From contig CALUVG010000014.1 in assembly GCA_944324165.1 (NCBI GenBank), forward strand, positions 1 through 57,354: DNA of 57,354 nucleotides, given 5' to 3'. A program made the position numbers and the translations under genes. This stretch comes from Candidatus Gastranaerophilales bacterium. GTDB lineage: Bacteria; Cyanobacteriota; Vampirovibrionia; Gastranaerophilales; Gastranaerophilaceae. The notes under the pieces are model-generated. The model had not been told where the DNA came from. It searched no databases and worked only from the letters and a program-made list of their open reading frames with translations. Positions 2,958 to 53,095 of this stretch are shown one piece after another; positions within the stretch are counted from its first letter, which is position 1; each line of letters begins with the position of its first letter.

Positions 2958-3927
2958 AAGAAAATATAAAAAGACTGAAAGTACTGCAACCAGAATTAAA
3001 AACTGGACTATATCAATAGCACTTGCTGTCATAATGTTCTGCGGATTACAAAGTTACAGCGCGTCCAGTCTGAAATTTGCACAGGTAAGTGATGTGCATT
3101 TTTCTACAGGAAATGCCAATACAACATATAAACTTACCGGCGAATCCTCAAAATTGTTAGATGATGCCATAGAGCAAATTAACGAAACTCCGAACATAAA
3201 TTTTGTTATGTTTACCGGTGACCAAATTGATAAGTCATTTGAAAAAGAATTATCTGCATTTCTGCCGCATGCCGAAAAACTAGCGTATCCGTGGTATGTA
3301 GTTTTTGGCAATCATGATACCTGTATTGGCGGATATCTTACGCCGGATGTTTATTTAAGTCTTGTAAGAGCTCATAATACCAACTTCACTTTTACAACAC
3401 CTTATTATTCATTTGTTCCGCAGAAAGGATACAAAGTGATTGTACTTGATACAATAATCCGTGATAGAATTACTGCCACAGGTGAAATTAATAAAGAACA
3501 ACTTAAATGGCTTGATGAACAGATAAAAACTTCACCTAAAGATACAATACTGATTTTTATGCATGTTCCTATAGTTGAACCATATAACAGCCCGAGTCAT
3601 AAATTACTTAACGCTGATGAGGTGGAAAGTGTGTTGACAAAATATAAAAATCCAATTGCCGTGTTCCAGGGACATTATCATGGTGCAAAAATATCGCAAA
3701 AAGATAATATTCTGTATGTCAGCACTCCGGCATTGGTCAGCTATCCAAATGCATTTAGAATCATTAATGTAACTAATTACCGTAAACGTGTAGTTTTTGA
3801 TATAAAAACAAAAGAAACACGTTTGCAAAATTTACAAAAACTTGCTAAAATTTTAGTATTTGGTACAACTATTTATTCCGGTGAGCAACAAGATCAGAAT
3901 GGAATTTATGTAATTAAGAAAAAATAG
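2950..3927 (+). CDS. membrane-anchored calcineurin-like metallophosphoesterase
   Basis: The five blocks of the calcineurin-like phosphoesterase fold are visible in order: DVHF (DxH), FTGDQID (GDxxD), FGNHD (GNHD), MHVPI and GHYHG (GHxH). These bind a two-metal centre that hydrolyses phosphate esters. The substrate cannot be told from sequence. One hydrophobic stretch near the N-terminus (SIALAVIMFCGLQSYSA) looks like an uncleaved anchor or signal peptide, placing the enzyme outside the cytoplasm. Two in-frame ATGs, 2935 and 2950, are possible and neither has a strong ribosome-binding site; I prefer 2950 (MARRKYKK) with GGAA upstream. It overlaps the preceding TPR gene end and is followed closely by an MBL-fold gene. 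Confidence 0.88.
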   Translation: MARRKYKKTESTATRIKNWTISIALAVIMFCGLQSYSASSLKFAQVSDVHFSTGNANTTYKLTGESSKLLDDAIEQINETPNINFVMFTGDQIDKSFEKELSAFLPHAEKLAYPWYVVFGNHDTCIGGYLTPDVYLSLVRAHNTNFTFTTPYYSFVPQKGYKVIVLDTIIRDRITATGEINKEQLKWLDEQIKTSPKDTILIFMHVPIVEPYNSPSHKLLNADEVESVLTKYKNPIAVFQGHYHGAKISQKDNILYVSTPALVSYPNAFRIINVTNYRKRVVFDIKTKETRLQNLQKLAKILVFGTTIYSGEQQDQNGIYVIKKK

Positions 3928-3950
3928 AATAATGAAGACAGAGGTTGAGT

Positions 3951-4877
3951 ATGAGTGATTTTAAAATAAAATTCAGAGGCGTTAGAGGCAGCTATCCTAT
4001 TGCGAATGGTAATTATCTGCAATATGGCGGCAATACCTCCTGTGTTGAAGTCAATGTAAACGGTCATCTTATAATACTTGATGCAGGAACCGGACTTATT
4101 GATGTAGGAAATGATCTTATGGAAAAATACATTTCGTCAGGACTTACACCGGAAGAAAGAGTGCCAATTCATGCTACTGTCCTAATTTCGCATATACATC
4201 AAGATCATATCCAAGGATTTACATTTTTTAGACCACTGCATATTCCGACAAGCCAGATCAATGTATTTGGCAATGTAAGCTATGACGAAACACTTTCTGA
4301 TGAATTGGCACATTTACTGTTTGGAAAATCATTCCCGCTTGATCTTGGCGATATAGCAGGGAATTTAAATATTACGGATATAACTGATACTGATGGAATT
4401 ATATTACGCCACGGCTGTGACCCTATTATAAAACGAATAGAACGCGATGATGATAAAATACCACAGAATGAAGATGTTTTAATTACCTGTTACCGTTCAT
4501 ATGCACATCCGCAAGAAGGCGTTATTATCTACAAAATTGCATACAAAGATAAAACTCTTGTTTATGCAACGGATAAAGAAAGTTATCTCGGCGGAGACAA
4601 AAAACTCGCAAATTTTGCACGCGGCTGCAATATTATAATTCATGATGCTCAATATACGACCGAAGATTATCTTAATCCTTTTGTACCAAAACAAGGATAC
4701 GGACATTCAACATTTGATATGGCTATTGAATGCCAAAAACAAGTAGGGGCTGAAAAACTTATTTTCTTCCATTTCGATCCAACATATGATGACAACAAGT
4801 TAAATATCATTAAAGAACATTATAGTGCACTGGAAAATGTTCAGCTTGCCTATGAAGGTTTGGAAATAGAATTATAG
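3951..4877 (+). CDS. MBL-fold metallo-hydrolase
   Basis: The 308-residue protein has the metallo-beta-lactamase fold signature HIHQDH (HxHxDH) after LDAGTG, then YATDKE, HDAQY, GYGHST and HFDP as later metal or active-site positions. The start FRGVRGSYP...YGGNTSC is typical of the branch related to cyclic-nucleotide phosphodiesterases and RNase Z-like hydrolases; the substrate is not predictable. It has no signal peptide, so it is cytoplasmic. I start it at ATG 3951, with AGAGG 6 nt upstream, rather than the TTG 6 nt earlier. It is the third gene of the TPR/phosphoesterase operon. Confidence 0.85.
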   Translation: MSDFKIKFRGVRGSYPIANGNYLQYGGNTSCVEVNVNGHLIILDAGTGLIDVGNDLMEKYISSGLTPEERVPIHATVLISHIHQDHIQGFTFFRPLHIPTSQINVFGNVSYDETLSDELAHLLFGKSFPLDLGDIAGNLNITDITDTDGIILRHGCDPIIKRIERDDDKIPQNEDVLITCYRSYAHPQEGVIIYKIAYKDKTLVYATDKESYLGGDKKLANFARGCNIIIHDAQYTTEDYLNPFVPKQGYGHSTFDMAIECQKQVGAEKLIFFHFDPTYDDNKLNIIKEHYSALENVQLAYEGLEIEL

Positions 4878-4915
4878 AAAAGTTGAATAATTATAATTCC
4901 GAAATGGTAAAAGTT

Positions 4916-5485
4916 ATGAAAAAGTTTCTAATACTAGCATTAATATTTGTGTCGCTGACTGCATCCGGATACAGAAAACCTGATATCTATGTTATTGATG
5001 CTCACAAAAATGGTGCCAAACATAATGATTGGGGGCTGAGATATTTAAATGAAAAATGTTATTATGCCGCAATTCAGGAGTTCAAAATAGCAATTAGTTT
5101 AAATCCGGATACTCAAGCAACCTCTACTTATTACAATAATCTGGGTGAAACTTATATGATTATAGGATATCCGGACTGGGCACAGGATTGTTTTGAACGT
5201 GCAATTACGCAGTATAGTTTAAATTTTAAATATTATCAAAATCTGGCAAAATGTCTTAAAGCCCGCGGACTTTTACAAGTAAAAATACAGGAATACAGTC
5301 AGGATGGATCACCGTTAAATAAAGTAATGCTAGGTTTATTGTATGTAGAAAGCGGAGATGTACGCAGGGGGGTAATTATTCTGGATGAGTTTGCAATGTC
5401 TGAACCGGATTTAGTTATTACAGTTGCCGTAAAAGCTTATATTAAAGAACTGGTAAATCAGATTAATAATACTCAAGCGTTATGA
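4916..5485 (+). CDS. exported TPR-repeat protein
   Basis: This is a 189-residue protein with an N-terminal signal peptide (MKKFLILALIFVSLTASGY) and two to three TPR-like helical pairs (LRYLNEKCYYAAIQEFKIAI, YYNNLGETYMIIGYPDWAQ). It ends the operon that began with another exported TPR protein, suggesting the two form an envelope scaffold around the phosphoesterase. The start is uncertain: ATG 4904 and TTG 4883 are in frame upstream. I chose 4916 because it gives the cleanest signal peptide. A bidirectional terminator follows the stop. Confidence 0.75.
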   Translation: MKKFLILALIFVSLTASGYRKPDIYVIDAHKNGAKHNDWGLRYLNEKCYYAAIQEFKIAISLNPDTQATSTYYNNLGETYMIIGYPDWAQDCFERAITQYSLNFKYYQNLAKCLKARGLLQVKIQEYSQDGSPLNKVMLGLLYVESGDVRRGVIILDEFAMSEPDLVITVAVKAYIKELVNQINNTQAL

Positions 5486-5522
5486 TATTTTTATCCATTC
5501 TAACAAATATTTTTAACAATAA

Positions 5523-5559
5523 AAAACGAATCGTTATTTTATTGTTAACGATTCGTTTT
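5523..5559. terminator. bidirectional terminator between convergent genes
   Basis: A perfect 13-bp inverted repeat (AAAACGAATCGTT at 5523-5535 and its complement at 5547-5559) has A and T tracts on both sides. It can end both the TPR operon and the HEAT-repeat gene. Confidence 0.85.
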
Positions 5560-5595
5560 AAAGAGTTATCTAGCATAACAAAGAAAGAACAAATT

Positions 5596-6453
5596 CTAGA
5601 AAGTTGTAGCCGGTTTTTTCTGAGCAGTAGCCCCAGGGATAGATTGCCAGTTAGCGGCCATAATTTTCTTAAATGATTTCAAGGCTGTATCTTCCAATTC
5701 GCCAAGTTCTTCAGCTTCCATAATCAGTTCTCTTAAAGGAAGTAGTGCTCTCTGGTCGCGAAGTACTCCAAGTGCAGCAGCTGCTCCGGCTCTGACTAAT
5801 TCATTTTCTGAACGGTTTTTCATAACGTCAATAAGTGCCGGCACAGCTCTTGTATCGTTTAATTTACCAAGAGAAGTTACCGCATAAATTCTAACGTTAA
5901 CCCATTCGTCATACAACATATTAATAACTTTTTCAACAGCTTTCTTATTACCTATTTCACCTAATGCTCTTGTAGCATCGCAGCGTACATTAACTTTTTC
6001 GTGGTCTAAAGATGCAATTAAAGCGTCAGTTGCAACATCACCAATTTCAATTAGTGCATCAGTTGCAGTGATACAAACCTGTGGGTTTTCATCATTGAGT
6101 GCTTCAACAAGCGGTTCAACAACAATTTCACCGCCAAGACGTCCTAATGCGCGTGCTGCGCGAACTCTTACATCAACATTACGGTCTTCACGTAAAGATT
6201 CAATCAGATGAACGGTTGCTTTTGAATCACCGAGTTCTCCAAGTGCTCTAGCTGCATAAAGACGAACTGAACCGTTTTTATCATGTTTAAGAACATCAAT
6301 TAACGGTTCAACAGCTTTAGAATCGCCCATTTCACCTAATACACGGGCTGCATTGTATCTTACTTTTTCTGAATTGCTTGTTTTTAAATCCATTAGTAAT
6401 TCGTCAAATGATTTTTTGACCTGTTTCTTTTTGCTGTTTACACTAATTGTCAT
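5596..6453 (-). CDS. HEAT-repeat (PBS-lyase type) protein
   Basis: The 285-residue protein is almost wholly built from about eight HEAT-like repeats of roughly 31 residues with the recurring core VR.YAARALGELGDSKAVEPL. This repeat type is known from phycobilisome lyases (CpcE/CpcF) and many scaffold proteins; no photosynthesis gene is near, so a chromophore-lyase role is unlikely. It is probably a cytoplasmic protein-interaction scaffold. GGAGG lies about 6 nt before the ATG. It is transcribed alone, convergent to the TPR operon. Confidence 0.85.
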   Translation of the reverse strand: MTISVNSKKKQVKKSFDELLMDLKTSNSEKVRYNAARVLGEMGDSKAVEPLIDVLKHDKNGSVRLYAARALGELGDSKATVHLIESLREDRNVDVRVRAARALGRLGGEIVVEPLVEALNDENPQVCITATDALIEIGDVATDALIASLDHEKVNVRCDATRALGEIGNKKAVEKVINMLYDEWVNVRIYAVTSLGKLNDTRAVPALIDVMKNRSENELVRAGAAAALGVLRDQRALLPLRELIMEAEELGELEDTALKSFKKIMAANWQSIPGATAQKKPATTF

Positions 6454-42657: not shown

Positions 42658-44835
42658 CTAATTATTATACCAAAAATGTTTCAAATCATTAGTTAAATTT
42701 TTAGGATTATTTTTTAAACGTTCTAAATTAACTGAATTTATTATTAAATTTCTATTTTTTATTCCCAACAATTTAAAATCATACTCCAGGTCTAATTTTT
42801 TCATTAGATAAAACCAGTATTCTTTAAATTCTTCCGGAGTTTGAACTTCTAACATTGCCAGAATTGAGTCTATTCTTATTTTTGTTGTTTCAACTAAAGA
42901 TGGCAAATCACAAGAGTTTAGATCTATTTTGCTGTTTGCAAATAATAAATCAGCAATAGATAGTGCAACAGCATGTCCATGAGGAATATTGTATTCACTT
43001 GTTATCTTATAAGACAGCGCATGCGCAGCAGTTGTTCTTGAAATATTAATAGCTTTACCGGCGAGGTGGGCTACTAACATCATATTATCTGAAGATATTT
43101 CATCATTTGAGTTTACATATTTGATAATATTATCTCTGCATAATTCAATTGCTTGTTTTGCATAGTCTCTACTTTCTTGTGTTGATGCAACTGCCCAATA
43201 GCTCTCAATTGCATGACAATATGCATCCATAGCGGTACAGGCTTTCAAATATTTTGGGTTATTATCAACAAGTTGACTATCTGCTATTGCATAATCCGGT
43301 AACACCGACTTTTCATCAATAGAATATTTAATACCATCATTATAAATAACTGCAAATTGTGTACTTTCCGCCCCTGTTCCTGCTGTTGTCGGTATTGCAA
43401 TTAATTTTTTATCTGATTTTGAGTAATAGCGATATGCCTTTGCAAAGTCCAGGACACTTCCCCCTCCAACTGCTACTATAATATCAAAATTTTGATCCAA
43501 TTGCTTAATTGCATTATTCACTTCATCTTTTTTAGGATTTGTTGAAAAATTGTTGTAATAGTGACAATTAAGTCCTGATAATTCTTTTTCAATAATCGAT
43601 TTTATTTGGTCAAATGATTTTTTTCCTGTAAAAACAAGAAGATTTTTTACATTTTCTTCTTTTAAAATTTTTGATAAATTTGTAACAGCCCCTCTATAAC
43701 AAAAATCAACTTGTGATAAATTTTCCATAAAAAGTTTTTTATTTTCCCGAGGTTTTTCTTTGGGTCTGCCCAGGTCACTTCTTGCTCCGCATTTTACCTT
43801 TATTTCTAATAAAGCAGTACATTTATCCGATATAAATTCAGGTAAAATCTTAATCAATTCTTCTTTTGTTTGAACAGAATATGATTTCTTATAACCACAG
43901 TCAAGGGCAGCTTTAGAAACATTTTCTTTATATACAGCAGTAGGTTGCGAGCCTACAGAATCGTGTGCTTCATTATTAAAGACAATATGTTTGAAATTTG
44001 ACAGTTCTTTTGTTGAGTTAACACTCAAAGCTCCTTGATGCATTAATAAAGCACCGTCTCCATCAAAACAATATACATTTCTATTTGCTTTTTCTAATGC
44101 AATACCTAAAGCAATGGAACTGGAATGTCCCATTGAGCCTACGGTCAAAAAATCTTGTTTGTGAGTTTGTCCTAAACGTTCCCTTATCTCATATACTTCT
44201 CTTGAAATATGTCCCGTTGTTGACACTATAATATCTGATAGTTTTAATTCCTTTAATACCGTTTCAATTGCTTCTTCTCTTTTCAAAGTATATGAATTTT
44301 CTTTTTTATTTTTTAACGTATATTTTTCAAATGTACCTTTTCTTACAATAAAAGCAAAAGGACATTTTGTTTCTTTCATGTATTCAAATGCTTTATTAAT
44401 TAATACTTTAGCGACTTCAAAGTTATCCGGTAAAATTTCATATTTTATTCCCATAGCTTCGAGCAATTTATCTGTAACTTTACCCTGTTTTATATGTTGT
44501 GGTTCATCTTTTTTATCAGGTTCACCACGCCAGCCTATAAACATCAACAATGGGATATTATACACTTCTTCATCTGTCAATGATAAAAGAGGATTTACGC
44601 AATTTCCTATTCCTGAATTTTGCATATATACTAAAGCCGGATAACCTGTTGCAAGAAAGTGCCCTGCGGCAAGCCCTATTGCATTCCCTTCATTTGCAGT
44701 AATTGTATGGCATTTGGCATCTGTGTTATCCGTGATATATGCACAAAAGTCTTTTAACAAACTGTCAGGAACTCCACAAAAACAGTTAATTTTATTTTCG
44801 GTTAACAAATTGTATAAATCAGCTACATTAATCAT
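42658..44835 (-). CDS. phosphonopyruvate decarboxylase / iron alcohol dehydrogenase fusion
   Basis: The 725-residue protein joins two enzymes. Residues about 1-370 are a thiamine-diphosphate decarboxylase of the phosphonopyruvate type: cofactor Glu in TANEGNAIG (E49), PLLMFIGWRGEPDKKDEPQH, and the ThDP motif GDG (259-261) to NN (287-288). Residues about 385-725 are an iron-dependent alcohol dehydrogenase with GGGSVLDFAKA (457-467), IPTTAGTGAES, and metal ligands in MDAYCHAIESYW and NIPHGHAVALS. Together they would convert phosphonopyruvate to phosphonoacetaldehyde and then 2-hydroxyethylphosphonate. ATG 44835 overlaps the PepM stop (TAATG), with GGGAG upstream. It is the last gene of the operon. 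Confidence 0.88.
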   Translation of the reverse strand: MINVADLYNLLTENKINCFCGVPDSLLKDFCAYITDNTDAKCHTITANEGNAIGLAAGHFLATGYPALVYMQNSGIGNCVNPLLSLTDEEVYNIPLLMFIGWRGEPDKKDEPQHIKQGKVTDKLLEAMGIKYEILPDNFEVAKVLINKAFEYMKETKCPFAFIVRKGTFEKYTLKNKKENSYTLKREEAIETVLKELKLSDIIVSTTGHISREVYEIRERLGQTHKQDFLTVGSMGHSSSIALGIALEKANRNVYCFDGDGALLMHQGALSVNSTKELSNFKHIVFNNEAHDSVGSQPTAVYKENVSKAALDCGYKKSYSVQTKEELIKILPEFISDKCTALLEIKVKCGARSDLGRPKEKPRENKKLFMENLSQVDFCYRGAVTNLSKILKEENVKNLLVFTGKKSFDQIKSIIEKELSGLNCHYYNNFSTNPKKDEVNNAIKQLDQNFDIIVAVGGGSVLDFAKAYRYYSKSDKKLIAIPTTAGTGAESTQFAVIYNDGIKYSIDEKSVLPDYAIADSQLVDNNPKYLKACTAMDAYCHAIESYWAVASTQESRDYAKQAIELCRDNIIKYVNSNDEISSDNMMLVAHLAGKAINISRTTAAHALSYKITSEYNIPHGHAVALSIADLLFANSKIDLNSCDLPSLVETTKIRIDSILAMLEVQTPEEFKEYWFYLMKKLDLEYDFKLLGIKNRNLIINSVNLERLKNNPKNLTNDLKHFWYNN

Positions 44836-46160
44836 TATTTTGCTCCCGGAATTAAAGTAATAATATCTTTTATATTCATGCAATATTCATCGCTTGCCTC
44901 TTTGCATCTGTGATTTTCAAGAATAGACTTTGCAGCATTAACCATTGCCGGATATGCGGCTCTTAATAAATGGTTTGCATATATAACAACATTAATATTG
45001 TTTTCAATTAATTCTGACTCTGTTACTTGATTATATGAAGAAGGTACAACCACCAATGGCTTTCTGTTTGAAAATTGGTTATACAATCTTGCGAATTCTT
45101 TAATCTCATCAAAAGTTTTTTTACGTGAGTGAATCATAATACCATCAGCCCCCGCATCTAAATATATTTTTGCTCTTGCAATTGCATCATCCATTCCTTG
45201 TTCAAGAATTAAACTTTCTATTCTTGCTATTATCATAAAGTCTTGAGTTATTTGTGCCTGTTTGCCTGCTTTAATTTTTTCTGCAAAATCTTCAGGGTTG
45301 TCTTGTTGTTGAAAAACTTCTGTTCCAAATAACGAATTTTTCTTTAAGCCGACTTTATCTTCTATAATAATTGCACTTACACCAAGTCTTTCCAATGTTT
45401 TTACGGTAAAAACAAAGTGTTCTTGTGGTCCACCGTTATCTCCGTCATAAATAATTGGTTTTGTTGTTACTTCCAATATTTCATTCAGTGTACCCATACG
45501 AGATGTTGTGTCCAAATAACCGATATCAGGTTTCCCTTGAGCTGCTGATTGAGTTAAAGATGAAATCCAAATACCATCAAATTCGATTTTCTTCCCGTTT
45601 TCTTCGATTGAAGTATTTTCAACTATTAATCCGGATAATCCATTATGACTTTCGCAAATTGTAACTATATCTTTTGAATCAAGCAGCCTTCTTAATCTAT
45701 GACATCTTATTTCAGGGGTAGTTCCTATTTCTTTTAAAGCATTATTTAATTGTGTAGAGGAAATTCCTTCTGTATAAGGAATGTCTATTACTTTTCCACC
45801 CCATTGAGACATAATATCAACAATTCTTTGCCGCGTCTTAGCTTGAATACCGGTTTTCCAATCGTCACCGTGCAGAACATAATCCGGTTTTATTTTCAAT
45901 AGATTTGGGACATAATCAAGTGTTTCTTGCGGCACAACAGAAGTAACACCTTTTACATTTTCAACCACAATCCTTCTTTGTTCCCAGGACATATATGGAA
46001 GCCTTTTGTAGCTTGCTATTGCCTTATCTGTTAACAAGCCGACAATAAGCTCTCCACCACCACTTTTTTCTAATATTTTACGTCCTTCATTGATAATATT
46101 TAGATGTCCCGGATGTATTAAATCCGCACTCATACCTATATAAATTTTCTTCATAGTCAT
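44835..46160 (-). CDS. cytidylyltransferase / phosphoenolpyruvate mutase fusion
   Basis: The 441-residue protein starts with a nucleotidyltransferase domain (about 1-145) of the TagD type: HPGH at 16-19, YMSWEQRR, and [10 protein letters not shown] (131-140). Residues about 155-441 are PEP mutase, which makes the C-P bond; the diagnostic EDK.....NS motif is present as [10 protein letters not shown] (267-276), with IYDGDNGG and MIIARIESL. The mutase feeds the following decarboxylase; the cytidylyltransferase probably activates the finished phosphonate with CTP. GAGGG precedes ATG 46160. It starts 3 nt after the TagB/F-like gene. Confidence 0.92.
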
Positions 46161-46163
46161 TTT

Positions 46164-47597
46164 TTAATCCCTCAATATATTTTCCAAATATGTAGTTATT
46201 GTTTTGCCCGCCTTACCGATATTTATAAAAATTTCTTGTTGCACATTTATTCTATCGTTCTTTAGCGGATCCTCTTTTTTGTTTATAATTAAGTCAAAAT
46301 ATCTACTTATATCATCTGTGTTGTGGCATAGATAGTATTTTTCCAAAATTTTTCTGGTGGAAGTAAAAAATCCATCAAAATACTGTTTTTGATTCCGTTC
46401 AGGATTAATCAAGTACATACACGGTGCATTTGTTGGCAGCCACTCAGCTATAAACGAACCGCAATCTGTAATTAGCAAACTGCTTTTTCTAAATAAATCA
46501 ATATATTCACCGTCATATACATATAATCCGTTCGGCAGAGAATCCCATTCATTTATATAATTTTGATATTCTTCTGTTGTCATGATATTTTTTTCAACAA
46601 CTTTTAAAATTAGAACGGGATGGGGTTTAAATACGAAATTAACATCCGGATTTGATTTCGCCAAATTTAAAAAATATTCATGGTAAAGATGAAATGTTGA
46701 TAAATTACATGGTTCCCAATCATTCATAATAGAGTGATGCGGGGCATATATTACAATCGGTTTCCCATTGTCAATTTTTTTATTGATTTTACACTCATTG
46801 ATAGACTTCTGGTATACATCCAGTTTAGGATACCCTGTCAAAATGCAATTTGTACCACAGTATTTTGAATATTTAACAAACTCTTTGTAATCCTCTTTAG
46901 AGGCAACAAAATTTTTCCAGCAAGAAGCTATTCTTCTATTATTATAATGGTAATTGTAATTATTTATTGTTGGAAAATAATATGATAAATAACATACTAA
47001 ATAATTTATATTTAAATAAATGTTATTTAATATTGTATCATGATAGTCGTCTAAATATGGCGCGGTCATAAATAAAATATCAATGTCGAATTTTTCAAGA
47101 GGGATTATAGATCTATCACTATCAAAACAATCGTATACATCGAAATTATTATTTTTAAAATATTGTAGAGCTTTAACATGATTTTTATATATTATATCAT
47201 TTTCACAAAAGCTGCCGTCTTTGTGGTCATATAATAGTATATATGGTTCAAATAAATCACTTTTTTCCATTTCTCTATAAACACTTGAAGCTGAAAATTT
47301 GGCAATATCATCTATCAAGAAACAAACGTTTATTTTTTTCCCTTCTCGGACCTTTCTTTTTAAATCAAGTTCTTTAATTTTATTTAATGCTGCAGAAAGC
47401 ATTAAACCATCCAACTGCTCATTAAAGTTATAATCATTTCTTATTTTTTCGCCATCTAAACGATTATATTCATATGACATAATATCAGGGACGACAGTCT
47501 TATATTTGTTCATTTTGTTAACAAAAGAATTTCTTACAGTTCCCTTTGTTATATAAGTTAGCGTTTTATATAGTTGATATTTTATCTTCTTTTTCAT
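46164..47597 (-). CDS. CDP-glycerol glycerophosphotransferase-like (TagB/TagF) protein
   Basis: The 477-residue protein resembles the teichoic-acid polymerase family: an N-terminal Rossmann part (KINVCFLIDDIAKFSASSVY), then PIVIYAPHHSIMNDW, NFVFKPHPVL and LITDCGSFIAEWLPTNAPCM, which line up with the donor-binding motifs of TagB/TagF. These enzymes transfer an alditol phosphate from a CDP donor. In this operon a CMP-phosphonate is the natural donor to propose, with transfer onto a glycan; that is inference. AAAGGAAA lies 8 nt before the ATG. It is probably peripheral to the inner membrane. Confidence 0.8.
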   Translation of the reverse strand: MKKKIKYQLYKTLTYITKGTVRNSFVNKMNKYKTVVPDIMSYEYNRLDGEKIRNDYNFNEQLDGLMLSAALNKIKELDLKRKVREGKKINVCFLIDDIAKFSASSVYREMEKSDLFEPYILLYDHKDGSFCENDIIYKNHVKALQYFKNNNFDVYDCFDSDRSIIPLEKFDIDILFMTAPYLDDYHDTILNNIYLNINYLVCYLSYYFPTINNYNYHYNNRRIASCWKNFVASKEDYKEFVKYSKYCGTNCILTGYPKLDVYQKSINECKINKKIDNGKPIVIYAPHHSIMNDWEPCNLSTFHLYHEYFLNLAKSNPDVNFVFKPHPVLILKVVEKNIMTTEEYQNYINEWDSLPNGLYVYDGEYIDLFRKSSLLITDCGSFIAEWLPTNAPCMYLINPERNQKQYFDGFFTSTRKILEKYYLCHNTDDISRYFDLIINKKEDPLKNDRINVQQEIFINIGKAGKTITTYLENILRD

Positions 47598-47620: not shown

Positions 47621-49774
47621 TCAAGTACAGTTACTTACATCCCCGGCAATTATTTTTCTTAAGTCATTAATAAATTTTTTAATATTGTGTGTTTCCCGGA
47701 TATATTCAATGGCGCGTTTTGCTTTGTCTTCATACAAAACATCATTTTGCATCAATTCTTGAATAGCAGGGATAAATAAATCTATCTTATCAAATCCATC
47801 ACCCAAAATTTCACCAACATATGCTCCAAATCTTGAAGGCAAATTTTCGTTATCTAAGCAACTTACTATTGCTGTTCCGTATTGTAATGCTTCAAGCCAG
47901 GAAATTGGTATACCTTCCCAAATAGAAGTATTTAGCAAAATTCTTGATTCTTTAATTAATTTTTCTTTCTCTTCACCCTCAAGGTGTCCTGTAAAGTGCA
48001 AGTTTTTAGGAGTATTTTCTAAATACGGCAGAAGGGGTTTTTTATTATTTTCTTTATCTCTAAAGAATTTACCCATTACAAAAAATTCATATTCAGGCAT
48101 TCTCTTTGCTACTTCACAAAATAACCAGGCTCTTTTTTGAGCTTCTAATCTTCCTAAGAAAATTACTTGTTTTTTCTTTTTAGAAATATCAAAGTTGTAA
48201 CTGTTATCTATTTCTATCGGGTTAGGAAGATATTGGATAGGTGTATCTATTGATAAATTATAAAGTATTTTTGCTAATGGATTAAGAGAATAGCCCTGAG
48301 ATATAAATTTAACTAAACCTTTTGAATTTAAATTATTAATTAGTTTGGGTATATTCTCATTTGTGACACAAGGATCCTTGATTAAAGAAACAGTTTGTCT
48401 TTTTTCTTCCCAAACCGAGGTCGGTCTCGGGTCCTGAATCCATAAAATTAACTTTTTATTATCTACTAACTTCATTATATTGTAAGATGGATAAGTCATT
48501 TCAATTGATAAAAATAGGTCATAATTCTGTTTTTTTAACCATTTTTTAGCAAGAACTGCAGGTCCCGGTAATCTATAAACTTTTATGCCATCTACAATTT
48601 GACACTCTGCATTTAATAATCCTTTTTTACGCTCTAAAAGCACATCAATTTGAATGTTCCCACAAGAAATATATTTTGTGATATAATTTCTTGCCAAAAA
48701 ACCGTATCCTCCAAAGGCTGTATTTGCGCCGCCAAAATATTCATCAATTAACAGCGCAACTTTTATTGTTTTTAGGTTTCGTTTTATATAATGTTTACAG
48801 CCCAAAAGAGTTAGAATTTTATATTCGCCATTGTTTTTAAGAGAAAATATTTGCTGTAAAATATTTTTTAAACAATACGATTTTATTTTTTTGTCTATTT
48901 TTTCTTTAACCTGTATATCATTTTTTTGGAAATACGGGGTTGATTTATAATAATCCCACCATTTGTTAATATAATTATAATTATATTTAAATTTTTTATC
49001 GTAATACCAGGGTTTTTCGGGTCCAACAAAATGATAAATATATGGGTTAAGTTCACCAAAACCTTTTAAACAATTCCATTTCGGATCGACATATTTAACA
49101 TTACCTTCCAATACTGCATTTAAAATATCTTGATCCTGAAACTCCAAAGGAGATTTTTCTTTAGCAAAAGACCATAATTTTTGTTCAATATTATCTTTTC
49201 TTATTTTATCTAAATTGAATAATAAAACTCCGGCATTAAAATAGTTATAATCTTTCATGCCTAAAACTGTTATAAAATATTGCAGATAAGACAAATTAGG
49301 GTATTGCGACGTATTATTTTTTTGATTTCTAATACAAGTCATCATAAAACTATCTTTAACTGCCGCGCAATAATAATCATCAATATTTTCCTTATACAGT
49401 AGAGATACATCTTTAAGTACAATGAGATCTGCATCTAAATAAAGAATCTTTTCATATTGTTTAAAAAGTCCGGGAATATAAAATCTAAAATACGTTTCAG
49501 GAGAAATATAAGTGTAATTTTCTCTTCTGGACATAAATTTTTCCAAGTTTGCATTACAGGCAATATCGCTCATATTAATAAATTCAATGGTGGCATTTTT
49601 CAATGAATTTACATAAGATCTAGAAATTTTTTGGTTATTTGCATCAATGTCTAAATGCATAACAAAAAAATTGTAATTATCATTGGGATTACTGCAATAC
49701 AAAATTGAATTTATTGTAGTTAATAACTGTTTTACATAACTATTATTTATTGCAAATACTATTGGTATATTCAT
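47621..49774 (-). CDS. bifunctional GT8-GT4 glycosyltransferase
   Basis: The 717-residue protein is a fusion. Residues about 1-300 are GT8: a nucleotide-sugar domain with the DxD motif in KILYLDADLIVLKDVS and a later YFNAGVLLFNLDKIR. Residues about 340-700 are GT-B fold, GT4-like: FGGANTAFGGYGFLARNYI, IFLGRLEAQKRAWLFCEVAK, NTSIWEGIPISWLEALQYGT with the conserved E..P.. donor loop. One protein would thus add two sugars in turn to the growing glycan. TACTCC-type sequence upstream corresponds to GGAGTA, a fair ribosome-binding site. It follows galE by about 15 nt. Confidence 0.88.
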   Translation of the reverse strand: MNIPIVFAINNSYVKQLLTTINSILYCSNPNDNYNFFVMHLDIDANNQKISRSYVNSLKNATIEFINMSDIACNANLEKFMSRRENYTYISPETYFRFYIPGLFKQYEKILYLDADLIVLKDVSLLYKENIDDYYCAAVKDSFMMTCIRNQKNNTSQYPNLSYLQYFITVLGMKDYNYFNAGVLLFNLDKIRKDNIEQKLWSFAKEKSPLEFQDQDILNAVLEGNVKYVDPKWNCLKGFGELNPYIYHFVGPEKPWYYDKKFKYNYNYINKWWDYYKSTPYFQKNDIQVKEKIDKKIKSYCLKNILQQIFSLKNNGEYKILTLLGCKHYIKRNLKTIKVALLIDEYFGGANTAFGGYGFLARNYITKYISCGNIQIDVLLERKKGLLNAECQIVDGIKVYRLPGPAVLAKKWLKKQNYDLFLSIEMTYPSYNIMKLVDNKKLILWIQDPRPTSVWEEKRQTVSLIKDPCVTNENIPKLINNLNSKGLVKFISQGYSLNPLAKILYNLSIDTPIQYLPNPIEIDNSYNFDISKKKKQVIFLGRLEAQKRAWLFCEVAKRMPEYEFFVMGKFFRDKENNKKPLLPYLENTPKNLHFTGHLEGEEKEKLIKESRILLNTSIWEGIPISWLEALQYGTAIVSCLDNENLPSRFGAYVGEILGDGFDKIDLFIPAIQELMQNDVLYEDKAKRAIEYIRETHNIKKFINDLRKIIAGDVSNCT

Positions 49775-49788
49775 ATTTACTCCTGTAC

Positions 49789-50781
49789 TTAATTATTAAT
49801 AAGATCTTTTATTTCCCACCTGTATGCGCTATTAATACTCATATTCAAACTTTTTTCAGGTTTCCATTTTAGAATATCTTTAGCTTTTGCATTATCAGCA
49901 ATAAGGCTTTTAGGATCACCTTCTCTTCTAGGCATTAGTTTAACCGGTATTTTTTTACCGGTTATGTCTTCACACATTTTAAATACTTCCTTGACGGTAT
50001 TACCATTATTTGTACCAAGATTAAAATAATCAGTTTTACCTCCATTATCTAAATATTTAAGAGCTAAAATGTGTGCATTAACTAAATCTTCAATATTTAT
50101 ATAATCTCTTACACAGGTGCCGTCTTTTGTATCATAATCATACCCATACAATTCAAAAGTTTTACCTCCTTCAAGAGTGGATTTTAAAATATTTGGAATT
50201 AAATGAGTTTCAGGCTCATGCCACTCGCCTATCCTGCTTTGATTATCGGCTCCCGCAACATTGAAATATCTTAATCTGACAGATTTCAATCCATAAGCTT
50301 TATCATAATCATCCATAATTTTTTCTATCATCAATTTTGTTTGCCCATAAGCATTGATTGGTTTTTGCGGATGAATTTCGTCAATTGGAATATAATTAGG
50401 TTCTCCATAGGTGGCTGCGGTTGAAGAAAATACAATTTTTTTAACTCTATATTCAATCATAGAATCTAATAGATTTAAAGTTCCTACGACATTATTTCTA
50501 TAATATTTTTTAGGATTTTTTACAGATTCGGCAACTTGAGAAAAAGCTGCAAAATGAAATATTGATTCAATATTTTCTTTTTCAAAAACTTTATCAATAC
50601 TGTTTTTATCTAATAAATCACCTTGATAAAAATTTAAATTACCGTATTTTTTTAAGGTTTCTATTGTTTCTATGTGTCCCGTAGAGAGATTATCAAATAT
50701 AACTATATTTTCTCCTTTTTCAAGAAGTGCCAAAGCTAAATGACTTCCTATATATCCTGCTCCACCCGTAATTAAAATCAA
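49789..50781 (-). CDS. galE: UDP-glucose 4-epimerase
   Basis: The 330-residue extended SDR enzyme interconverts UDP-glucose and UDP-galactose (or the N-acetyl forms). It has the NAD-binding ITGGAGYIGSHLALALLEKG, VFSSTAATYGEP and the catalytic YxxxK in YGQTKLMIEK, with RYFNVAGAD and the C-terminal REGDPKSLIADNAKAKDILK. The start is TTG 50781, with AAGGAG about 7 nt upstream; the TTG overlaps the stop of a 54-residue gene. It supplies a sugar donor for the operon's glycosyltransferases. Confidence 0.95.
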   Translation of the reverse strand: MILITGGAGYIGSHLALALLEKGENIVIFDNLSTGHIETIETLKKYGNLNFYQGDLLDKNSIDKVFEKENIESIFHFAAFSQVAESVKNPKKYYRNNVVGTLNLLDSMIEYRVKKIVFSSTAATYGEPNYIPIDEIHPQKPINAYGQTKLMIEKIMDDYDKAYGLKSVRLRYFNVAGADNQSRIGEWHEPETHLIPNILKSTLEGGKTFELYGYDYDTKDGTCVRDYINIEDLVNAHILALKYLDNGGKTDYFNLGTNNGNTVKEVFKMCEDITGKKIPVKLMPRREGDPKSLIADNAKAKDILKWKPEKSLNMSINSAYRWEIKDLINN

Positions 50782-50944: not shown

Positions 50945-51811
50945 TTATACACTCCTTCTTATCTCAATAAAAGGAATTATGTTAAACAAATATAATTTTT
51001 TAGTTGCCCTGTAGATTTTTTTCTTAATTATTGGAATTTTGAAAAATGTAATTTGTTCTTTATATAAAAGTTCATTTTTAATATTAGTGTTAATTGCATA
51101 TTTGATACATTTTTTTCTTATATATTCCGTGCCCAAAAGTTTATCAGCTCTTGATTTATCACTATCTTTTTTAATTAAGCTATCTTTTCTTTTCCAATAG
51201 TGATAGTTTGTGTTGGGGCAAACCACAAGAAAATCTGACTTTTCTAAAACATCAGGAGTAAAACACAAATCCTCATAAATCATTCCTGAAATAAATTTGA
51301 TGTTATTTGAAATAAGCATTTCTTTTTTATAGATTTTATTCCATACAAAATTATATTTTGGACTTTTAGCCAGAAGATATTTTTCTTTAATATCTTTTGC
51401 AAGTTCTACTTGTTTATAGTTAAAAAGCAGATTCTTTTTCTTTTCATTTTCTCTAACAATACCTGCACATGCTATATCCGCATTATTTTTAACCGCACAA
51501 TTGTATAATGTTTCATAAAAATTCTTATCAATATAATCATCCGAATCTATAAATGAAATATATTCACCGGTTGCTTGTGCTAAACCGATATTTCTTGAAT
51601 CTGAAAGTCCAATGTTTTTTGAGTTTAAAATAATTTTAAAATTAGGATAATTTTTATATTTTTCTAATATTGTTTTTGAGTTATCAGTTGAACAATCTTC
51701 AATACATATTATTTCAATATCATTCAATGTTTGATTAAGTATACTCTCAAGACATCTGTCCAAATATTTTTCGACATTATACACAGGAACAATAACTGAT
51801 ACTTTTATCAT
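50945..51811 (-). CDS. glycosyltransferase family 2
   Basis: The 288-residue enzyme has the GT-A fold: SVIVPVYNVEKYLDRCLESI, IEDCSTDNSKTILEKY, NIGLSDSRNIGLAQATGEYI and the metal-binding DxD in FIDSDDYIDKNFYE. It would add a sugar to the glycan from a nucleotide donor at the cytoplasmic face. No C-terminal membrane helix is seen. Its ATG overlaps the stop of the 61-residue gene upstream (ATGA), indicating coupled translation. Confidence 0.92.
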   Translation of the reverse strand: MIKVSVIVPVYNVEKYLDRCLESILNQTLNDIEIICIEDCSTDNSKTILEKYKNYPNFKIILNSKNIGLSDSRNIGLAQATGEYISFIDSDDYIDKNFYETLYNCAVKNNADIACAGIVRENEKKKNLLFNYKQVELAKDIKEKYLLAKSPKYNFVWNKIYKKEMLISNNIKFISGMIYEDLCFTPDVLEKSDFLVVCPNTNYHYWKRKDSLIKKDSDKSRADKLLGTEYIRKKCIKYAINTNIKNELLYKEQITFFKIPIIKKKIYRATKKLYLFNIIPFIEIRRSV

Positions 51812-51993
51812 TGCACCTCCTTTGGAATAAATGTTTTTAATAATGCTACATAAAATTTTGGACGGAGAAAAAATAATGGTCTGCCTTTAAAATACTCCGG
51901 CGTAGTTGATTTTAACATTTGTATTAATTCCTCGTCTTGTTTACGTTTACTACAATATTGTTTCCAATACCTTTGTTTTAAGTAATAACCCAT
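51808..51993 (-). CDS. 61-residue protein, first gene of glycan operon
   Basis: The short basic protein (MGYYLKQRYWKQYCSKRKQD, PLFFLRPKFYVALLKTFIPK) has AAAGG before its ATG and overlaps the GT2 gene by 4 nt. It is not a recognised family. Its length and Tyr/Lys/Arg content look like the C-terminal tail of a glycosyltransferase, so it may be the remnant of a larger gene or a true small leader protein. It is the first gene downstream of the inverted repeat. Confidence 0.6.
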   Translation of the reverse strand: MGYYLKQRYWKQYCSKRKQDEELIQMLKSTTPEYFKGRPLFFLRPKFYVALLKTFIPKEVQ

Positions 51994-52061
51994 ACACTAC
52001 CTTTACTTTAAAAATAAATCTTTATATAAATTTTAAAATTCCATCACTTCTATTTTTATTT

Positions 52062-52251
52062 CTTAACTTTATATCCATTTTGTTAAGATAATAAAAAAGC
52101 ACTATTTTAAAGGGTTTTAAACTTAAAATACCAAACAAAAACAGAAATTCTTAACATTTTTTAATAAATACAAGTTTCCATTTCCATTTATGGTATCCTA
52201 ATTTTAGGGAATAGCATAAATAATTCTTAACAAAATGGATATAAAGTTAAG
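52062..52251. repeat. 26-bp perfect inverted repeat, candidate invertible promoter segment
   Basis: The arm at 52062-52087 begins CTTAACTTTATATCC; the arm at 52226-52251 is its exact reverse complement over all 26 bp. They enclose 138 bp of A+T-rich DNA with no gene. Each arm is itself near-palindromic, CTTAAC at one end and GTTAAG at the other, as two recombinase-binding half-sites around a core. The left arm ends 69 bp before the glycan operon and the right arm lies 44 bp from the stop of a small tyrosine recombinase. A weak minus-strand promoter, TTGGTA (52134-52129) and TAAAAT (52109-52104) with a 19-bp spacer, may lie inside. Confidence 0.8.
52104..52134 (-). promoter_or_regulatory. weak candidate promoter inside inverted-repeat segment
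   Basis: On the minus strand, TTGGTA and TAAAAT are separated by 19 bp and point to the glycan operon. The spacing is long and the match is modest. It is the best candidate I found in this orientation. Confidence 0.3.
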
Positions 52252-52295
52252 ATGATAAGATATTCAGTTTATCATTGAACATAGAGGATTTGAGA

Positions 52296-52838
52296 CTACA
52301 AAATAAAATTGTTATAACTTTCGTCAATTTGATCCTGTTCAATGCCGATATACCTTAGAGTTATATTAGGGGTTGAATGATTAAAGATTTTTTGCAGCAT
52401 GGCTACATCTTTAAATTTTTTGTAATGGTGATAACCGAATGTTTTTCTCATGGTATGCGTGCCGATTTTTTCTTGTAAACCAACGGCTTGACCTGCTGTT
52501 TTTATAATATAATATGCCCCAAACCTATCAAGCCGATTTTTAAATATAGAAACGAATAAGGCCTCATCAGAATGTTTACCTTTTATAAACTCTTCTATCA
52601 TTGGCTTTAATTTTGAATTAATGGGAAATTTTTTAAATTTTCCTGTTTTCTTTTCAATAATCTGAATATGGCTTTTGTTACGCACATCACCGACATTAAG
52701 GGCTACTATGTCTGAAATTCTTAATCCGCAATTTGTACCGATAGTAAATAATAACAGATCTCTCGGACTATGTTTTGCAAAATACTTTTCTAATTTTTTG
52801 ATACTTTCAATTTTTCTGATTGGTTCTACTGTTGTCAT
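52296..52838 (-). CDS. small tyrosine recombinase, FimB/FimE-sized
   Basis: The 180-residue protein is essentially a bare catalytic domain, like FimB and FimE (about 200 residues), which invert a promoter in Escherichia coli. All catalytic residues are visible: R40 in GLRISDIVAL, K63/K64 in IIEKKTGK, H128 and R131 in HTMRKTF, H154 in FNHSTPN and the nucleophile Y163 in LRYIG. It lacks the N-terminal arm domain of phage integrases. I chose ATG 52838 with AAGGAGA close upstream; the frame also runs to 52904. It is transcribed towards the inverted repeat. No excisionase or phage gene is nearby. Confidence 0.88.
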   Translation of the reverse strand: MTTVEPIRKIESIKKLEKYFAKHSPRDLLLFTIGTNCGLRISDIVALNVGDVRNKSHIQIIEKKTGKFKKFPINSKLKPMIEEFIKGKHSDEALFVSIFKNRLDRFGAYYIIKTAGQAVGLQEKIGTHTMRKTFGYHHYKKFKDVAMLQKIFNHSTPNITLRYIGIEQDQIDESYNNFIL

Positions 52839-53021: not shown

Positions 53022-53095
53022 TACGCGTGGAGGGATTCGAACCCCCGACCTTTTGGTTCGTAGCCAAACACTCTATCCAACTGAGCTACACACGC
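53022..53095 (-). tRNA. tRNA-Arg (anticodon ACG)
   Basis: On the minus strand GCGTGTG begins the acceptor stem, followed by TAGCTCAG (D arm), anticodon stem-loop TTTGG-CTACGAA-CCAAA with anticodon ACG at 34-36, and the T arm GGGGG-TTCGAAT-CCCTC. The length is 74 nt and CCA is not encoded. The first acceptor pair is G-T. The ACG anticodon is normally edited to ICG to read CGU, CGC and CGA. An open frame on the other strand here (RGGIRTPDLLV) is the usual tRNA artefact. Confidence 0.95.

Follow-up and report, generated by a model that had tools for sequence, protein, structure and literature searches.

Genomic context of the candidate switch

The window (the whole stretch of DNA that was analyzed, 57,354 nucleotides from a Candidatus Gastranaerophilales genome) contains a tyrosine recombinase gene and a surface-glycan operon, both on the minus strand, with a perfect inverted repeat and the segment it encloses in the middle. 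From the recombinase toward the end of the operon, the features are as follows.

52296..52838, minus strand: tyrosine recombinase of 180 aa, the candidate inverter, with the full R40 K67 H128 R131 H154 Y163 set
52225..52252, minus strand: right arm of the repeat, on the recombinase side, exact reverse complement of the left arm
52187..52199, plus strand: promoter-like extended -10 element TTTATGGTATCCT, a variant of the family motif TTTRTGNTANNAT, facing away from the operon
52148..52164, plus strand: internal half-site-like element TTCTTAACATTTTTTAA, kept in related segments
52089..52224, no strand: candidate invertible segment between the arms, 136 bp; homologous segments of relatives lie in both orientations
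52061..52088, plus strand: left arm of the repeat, on the operon side, TCTTAACTTTATATCCATTTTGTTAAGA, 28 bp
51808..51993, minus strand: 61-aa ORF without a family match, first after the switch
50945..51811, minus strand: family 2 glycosyltransferase
49789..50781, minus strand: UDP-glucose 4-epimerase GalE
47621..49774, minus strand: glycosyltransferase fusion, family 8 plus group 1 (GT8/GT1)
46164..47597, minus strand: possible surface polysaccharide glycosyltransferase, with weak NCBIfam matches under the cut-off
44835..46160, minus strand: cytidylyltransferase-PEP mutase fusion, phosphonate synthesis
42658..44883, minus strand: phosphonopyruvate decarboxylase-Fe alcohol dehydrogenase fusion, phosphonate synthesis

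Because two of the operon's genes are fusions of phosphonate enzymes, these enzyme families suggest a phosphonate-decorated glycan; the operon product is probably a phosphonate-bearing surface glycan, and the fusions (42658-46160, minus strand) suggest a decoration of the hydroxyethylphosphonate type. A tRNA-Arg (acg) lies directly upstream of the recombinase gene (53022-53095, minus strand), and a variable region linked to this tRNA may adjoin the glycan locus. At the edge of the window, a protein that runs off the contig end (57000-57354, minus strand) carries tandem repeats of KGEEETPAAPTAPKDKDV.

Geometry and uniqueness of the inverted repeat

The two arms match perfectly over 28 bp and enclose 136 bp of intergenic DNA. 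The original prediction had recognized a perfect inverted repeat at this position, and this stands, but its dimensions of 26 bp around 138 bp fell one base short at each arm end. The CTTAAC...GTTAAG half-site layout that it described is present, as TCTTAAC-14 nt-GTTAAGA, so that each arm holds its own inverted half-sites. Its distances to the two neighboring genes likewise hold: 67 nt separate the left arm from the start of the 61-aa ORF (51993), which precedes the first glycosyltransferase, and 43 nt separate the right arm from the recombinase stop codon (52296-52298).

Among repeats with arms up to 600 bp apart, the 28-bp pair is the longest perfect inverted repeat in the 57-kb window, and a chance origin was excluded by 60 first-order resamples, in which the longest arm reached at most 17 bp (mean 13.6). 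Allowing up to 3 mismatches, the 2.05-Mb genome yielded no further copies of the arm. A genus-wide search recovered, beyond the two arms themselves, a single arm with 3 mismatches (in genome G003), and viral contigs searched for the arm plus its left flank gave no match.

At face value, the 192-bp unit looks MITE-like, as it is bounded by long inverted repeats at its termini. A repeat that does not invert, be it the termini of a MITE or an RNA hairpin acting as a terminator or attenuator, is nonetheless very improbable: the arm sequence recurs nowhere else in the genome, the unit lacks a flanking target-site duplication, a hairpin would have a 136-nt loop on an AT-rich stem with no terminator-like site there, and in relatives the segment is inverted in place between colinear flanks (described below). 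The MITE and terminator identities were rejected on these grounds.

The adjacent recombinase

The recombinase gene begins with an ATG at 52838, behind AGGAGA, and its product matches PF00589 with 85.5 bits against a cut-off of 27.1, which together with the complete catalytic residues places it in the tyrosine recombinase superfamily and confirms the small tyrosine recombinase of the original prediction. The R-K-H-R-H-Y set is intact in 147 of 148 distinct relatives, the remaining one being gapped at the Tyr column, and a dN/dS of ∼0.03 against near relatives points to strong purifying selection. An AlphaFold model (pLDDT 93) resembles XerA and the catalytic domain of HP1 integrase; at only 180 aa, the protein has no room for a core-binding domain. 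It thereby agrees with FimB/FimE-type invertases, which consist of the catalytic domain only and have about 200 aa, whereas the corresponding NCBIfam models scored far under their cut-offs (NF007371, 41.1 bits with a cut-off of 222; NF007370, 34.5 with a cut-off of 221), so that the recombinase would act like such invertases, yet is not filed among them.

Recombinase-switch units across Gastranaerophilales

The relatives of the recombinase in named genomes belong to Candidatus Gastranaerophilales metagenome-assembled genomes. In 99 genomes sampled around that of the window, matches of at least 50% identity were spread throughout the window's family, with some in a few further families of the order. 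At E ≤1e-30, all of the matches listed for the samples of the class and of the phylum fall in the window's family. The window's own genome carries four copies (on contigs C14 and C17, and two on C2), and immediately 3′ of each gene lies a separate repeat pair. This placement recurs in the family: counting repeats with a score of at least 14 within 700 nt, at genes with enough downstream DNA, an inverted repeat lies 3′ of 60 of 120 distinct recombinase genes versus 5′ of 3 of 115. When the set was enlarged, a repeat pair was present at 65 of 130 loci, the other half being without a clear pair by the finder used, and the arms are mostly 97–168 bp apart, with a minority at 219–303 bp. The arms vary from locus to locus, but arm similarity tracks recombinase similarity (r 0.51, with 0 of 2000 permutations as high); shared ancestry adds to this value, and the correlation therefore supports, without proving, a private pairing of recombinase and arms.

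The genes downstream of the family's switches are mostly glycan genes. Fourteen of the 57 first long genes match family 2 glycosyltransferases (a raw count, with the catalytically dead paralogs described below left out), and sugar transferases, Stealth proteins, aminotransferases, epimerases, and UDP-galactopyranose mutase were also found in this position.

Two further arrangements were observed in the survey. On contig C2 of the window's genome (locus L035, positions 3780-6437), two recombinase-switch units stand in tandem, in the order first switch, small LuxR-type HTH ORF, and recombinase of the second switch; the same layout occurs in L036 (G037:C46), and the tandem units are possibly a cascade of switches. 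Additionally, four IMG/VR contigs filed as viral (L233–L236) encode recombinases 69–76% identical to that of the window and may represent prophage or misfiled host DNA.

Segment orientation among relatives

Both orientations of the segment occur among relatives, in different genomes. Across 130 locus contexts, 62 pairs differ by the inversion of a 3′ segment at least 70 nt long. The clearest examples include L169 and L170, which encode identical recombinase proteins and share 1.7 kb of colinear sequence at 95% identity with 189 bp inverted at 97%; L035 and L063, with 318 bp inverted at 96% between colinear flanks; and L120 and L148, with 197 bp inverted at 80%. The switch of the window is itself colinear with five relatives (L125, L128, L129, L130, and L132; 80–82% identity over about 800 bp) and inverted relative to L147, whose recombinase is 96% identical to the window's. 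In that comparison, colinearity at 87% ends inside the first arm, immediately beyond which 120 bp match in inverted orientation at 71% (47 bp at 85%), a modest match; L139 likewise matches the window segment inverted. The original prediction had singled out one orientation in all relatives as one of the results that would count against it, and the comparison instead returned L147 in one orientation, the five colinear loci in the other, and the 62 inverted pairs. From these relatives, we infer that the window locus may flip in its own species.

The assembly contains a single orientation, as would be expected if a former switch were now locked in this strain, with the recombinase silent or unable to act and the repeat a relic. 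This is improbable given arms that are perfect over 28 bp and an intact recombinase with so low a dN/dS: an unused pair of sites would drift, and the mismatched arms at other loci show such drift. Across the family, contig ends also agree with inversion: among 78 loci of named genomes, 14 contigs stop no more than 200 nt from the recombinase on the switch side and 0 do so on the other side; mixed orientations in the sampled populations would produce such breaks, which are thus an indirect sign of them.

In L124, L054, and L147, and again in L169 and L170, the region 3′ of the recombinase seemingly contains three sites, with only one of two sub-segments inverted between genomes. Such three-site switches could give more than two states.

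Promoter motif and predicted state

The extended -10 motif TTTRTGNTANNAT is present in 32 of the 65 segments, against 0.9 expected from resampling, a figure that is somewhat optimistic because the motif was spotted by inspecting the same segments. Elsewhere in the window only four copies occur, three of which closely precede a gene start and point in the right direction. Generic sigma-70 scanning and an initial promoter score failed to discriminate in this AT-rich DNA, whereas the conserved family motif did; a consensus scan also yields an operon-facing candidate in the window's segment, in a number of hits compatible with chance. The window's own element, TTTATGGTATCCT, is a weakened variant of TTTRTGNTANNAT and occupies the same position as the motif in L132. 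Since it faces away from the operon, the assembled orientation is probably the OFF state. This predicted state refines the original prediction, which had called the inside promoter weak and had named no ON orientation.

Because the motif is aimed at the 3′ end of the recombinase gene, as it is at 21 of the 32 motif-bearing loci (the other 11 being operon-facing), it might be argued that the switch chiefly controls the recombinase, by transcription into its 3′ end, and that the operon is transcribed from elsewhere. This is unlikely: in most loci the first downstream ORF begins tens of bases past the second arm, and the first downstream gene is often a surface-glycan gene, which together place the operon as the target of the switch. 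Control of the recombinase and of the operon by one switch can coexist, and a promoter firing toward the recombinase 3′ end in the OFF form could also tune the recombinase.

Catalytically dead paralogs

Sixteen loci carry a second recombinase-like gene in the same orientation as the recombinase and downstream from it. In 13 of these, a clear repeat pair separates the two; in L124, L126, and L147, which are of the three-site type, the finder gave only short repeats. Examples beside switches are:

L065:6525-7052, dead paralog
L150:4143-4670, dead paralog
L128:6905-7432, dead paralog
L211, L216, L218, L177, L179, L182, L173, and L221, further loci with a dead paralog

All 28 paralogs that were found, beside switches or elsewhere, lack between 2 and 5 of the 6 catalytic residues, with losses of the first Arg in 25, of the first His in 28, of the second His (to Gln) in 24, and of the Tyr (to Phe) in 17. 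They form a single clade with 100/100 support, close pairs show dN/dS of 0.04–0.27, and a structural model keeps the fold (pLDDT 91). Twelve have no active recombinase within roughly 1.5 kb upstream (L213, L203, L214, L217, L223, L225, L226, L227, and L228, among others) and are possibly stand-alone regulators. The window's own locus is of the plain form, with no dead paralog gene.

The dead paralog is presumably a recombinase turned regulator that would be made when the switch is ON. A more extended reading, which we offer tentatively and consider doubtful as a whole, is that the units are lineage-specific cassettes, some of whose switches control a dead paralog made only in the ON state and binding the sites without cutting them. 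Acting as a feedback brake or direction factor, such a protein would let the switch regulate its own flipping. In a survey of gut invertons, inverton promoters generally did not control invertase genes, one group being a possible exception (PMC11892184).

Proposed mechanism

We propose, with a probability of about 0.9, that the window locus is a phase-variation switch in which the adjoining recombinase inverts a promoter segment ahead of the surface-glycan operon. Each 28-bp arm would serve as a complete recombination site; the 180-aa recombinase would bind both arms and invert the 136-bp segment lying between them. The segment would bear one directional promoter, which in one orientation drives the operon; in the assembled orientation, it would point at the 3′ end of the recombinase gene, leaving the operon off save for read-through. 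At the level of sequence comparison, the arms, the intact recombinase, the position of arms beside recombinases across the family, and the opposite orientations among relatives are all established; the action of this recombinase on these arms is the presumed link between them, and the promoter activity within the segment is putative. The candidate invertible promoter of the original prediction is therefore supported by the intact recombinase, by both orientations among relatives, and by a motif that faces either way.

If this is true, many Gastranaerophilales would tune their surface glycans via DNA inversion, with one recombinase per switch, and would provide many matched recombinase-site pairs for studies of site specificity. 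As the operon encodes phosphonate synthesis, a phosphonate-bearing surface glycan may be phase-variable. The dead paralog clade would additionally offer a testable example of a recombinase turned regulator.

Comparison with known systems

Gut relatives of cyanobacteria, the Gastranaerophilales have been little studied. One survey reported DNA inversion from six bacterial phyla, Cyanobacteria not among them (PMC5903667), and the literature covered, which is partial and makes absence weak evidence, held no report of phase variation, invertible DNA, or surface polysaccharides in Gastranaerophilales or Melainabacteria, nor of invertons in Cyanobacteria. As far as searched, the switches in Gastranaerophilales, the cassette family with one recombinase per switch, and the dead paralog are new.

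Invertible promoters served by tyrosine recombinases are themselves well known, as in fimS, hyxS, ipuS, and the RecV switches. Mpi, which flips the capsule promoters of Bacteroides, belongs to the serine recombinases and works on many promoters sharing one arm. The window differs from the Mpi type in its tyrosine-type recombinase and in a private arm that is unique in the genome. With XerA, XerC, XerD, and XerH, the window recombinase has the catalytic fold and active site in common, but it lacks their N-terminal core-binding domain, is 180 rather than about 290 aa long, shows about 20% identity in the structural match, and is encoded next to inverted repeats.

The fimS, hyxS, and ipuS switches of E. 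coli (with FimB, FimE, FimX, IpuA, and IpuB) likewise use a tyrosine recombinase of about 180–200 aa that consists of the catalytic domain only, and in them, as in the window, the recombinase gene adjoins a short segment with a promoter, ahead of an operon for surface structures (PMC6083910). The dimensions differ, however, as ipuS comprises 260 bp with 7-bp repeats (PMC6083910), whereas the window has 136 bp, and each of its 28-bp repeats contains a complete site. Another gut bacterium, Clostridioides difficile, has switches made of intergenic promoter or regulatory segments that the tyrosine recombinase RecV inverts (PMC5903667, PMC7446863), but RecV is one enzyme for several distant switches (PMC5903667), while the recombinases described here lie beside their own switches and the window arm is genome-unique. 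The capsule loci of Bacteroides are similar in that, as is well known, operons for surface polysaccharides vary in phase there through promoters that invert (cited in PMC11892184). The original prediction had likened the locus to fimS and the Bacteroides capsule loci; the closest kin of the locus are instead the recombinase-switch cassettes specific to the order.
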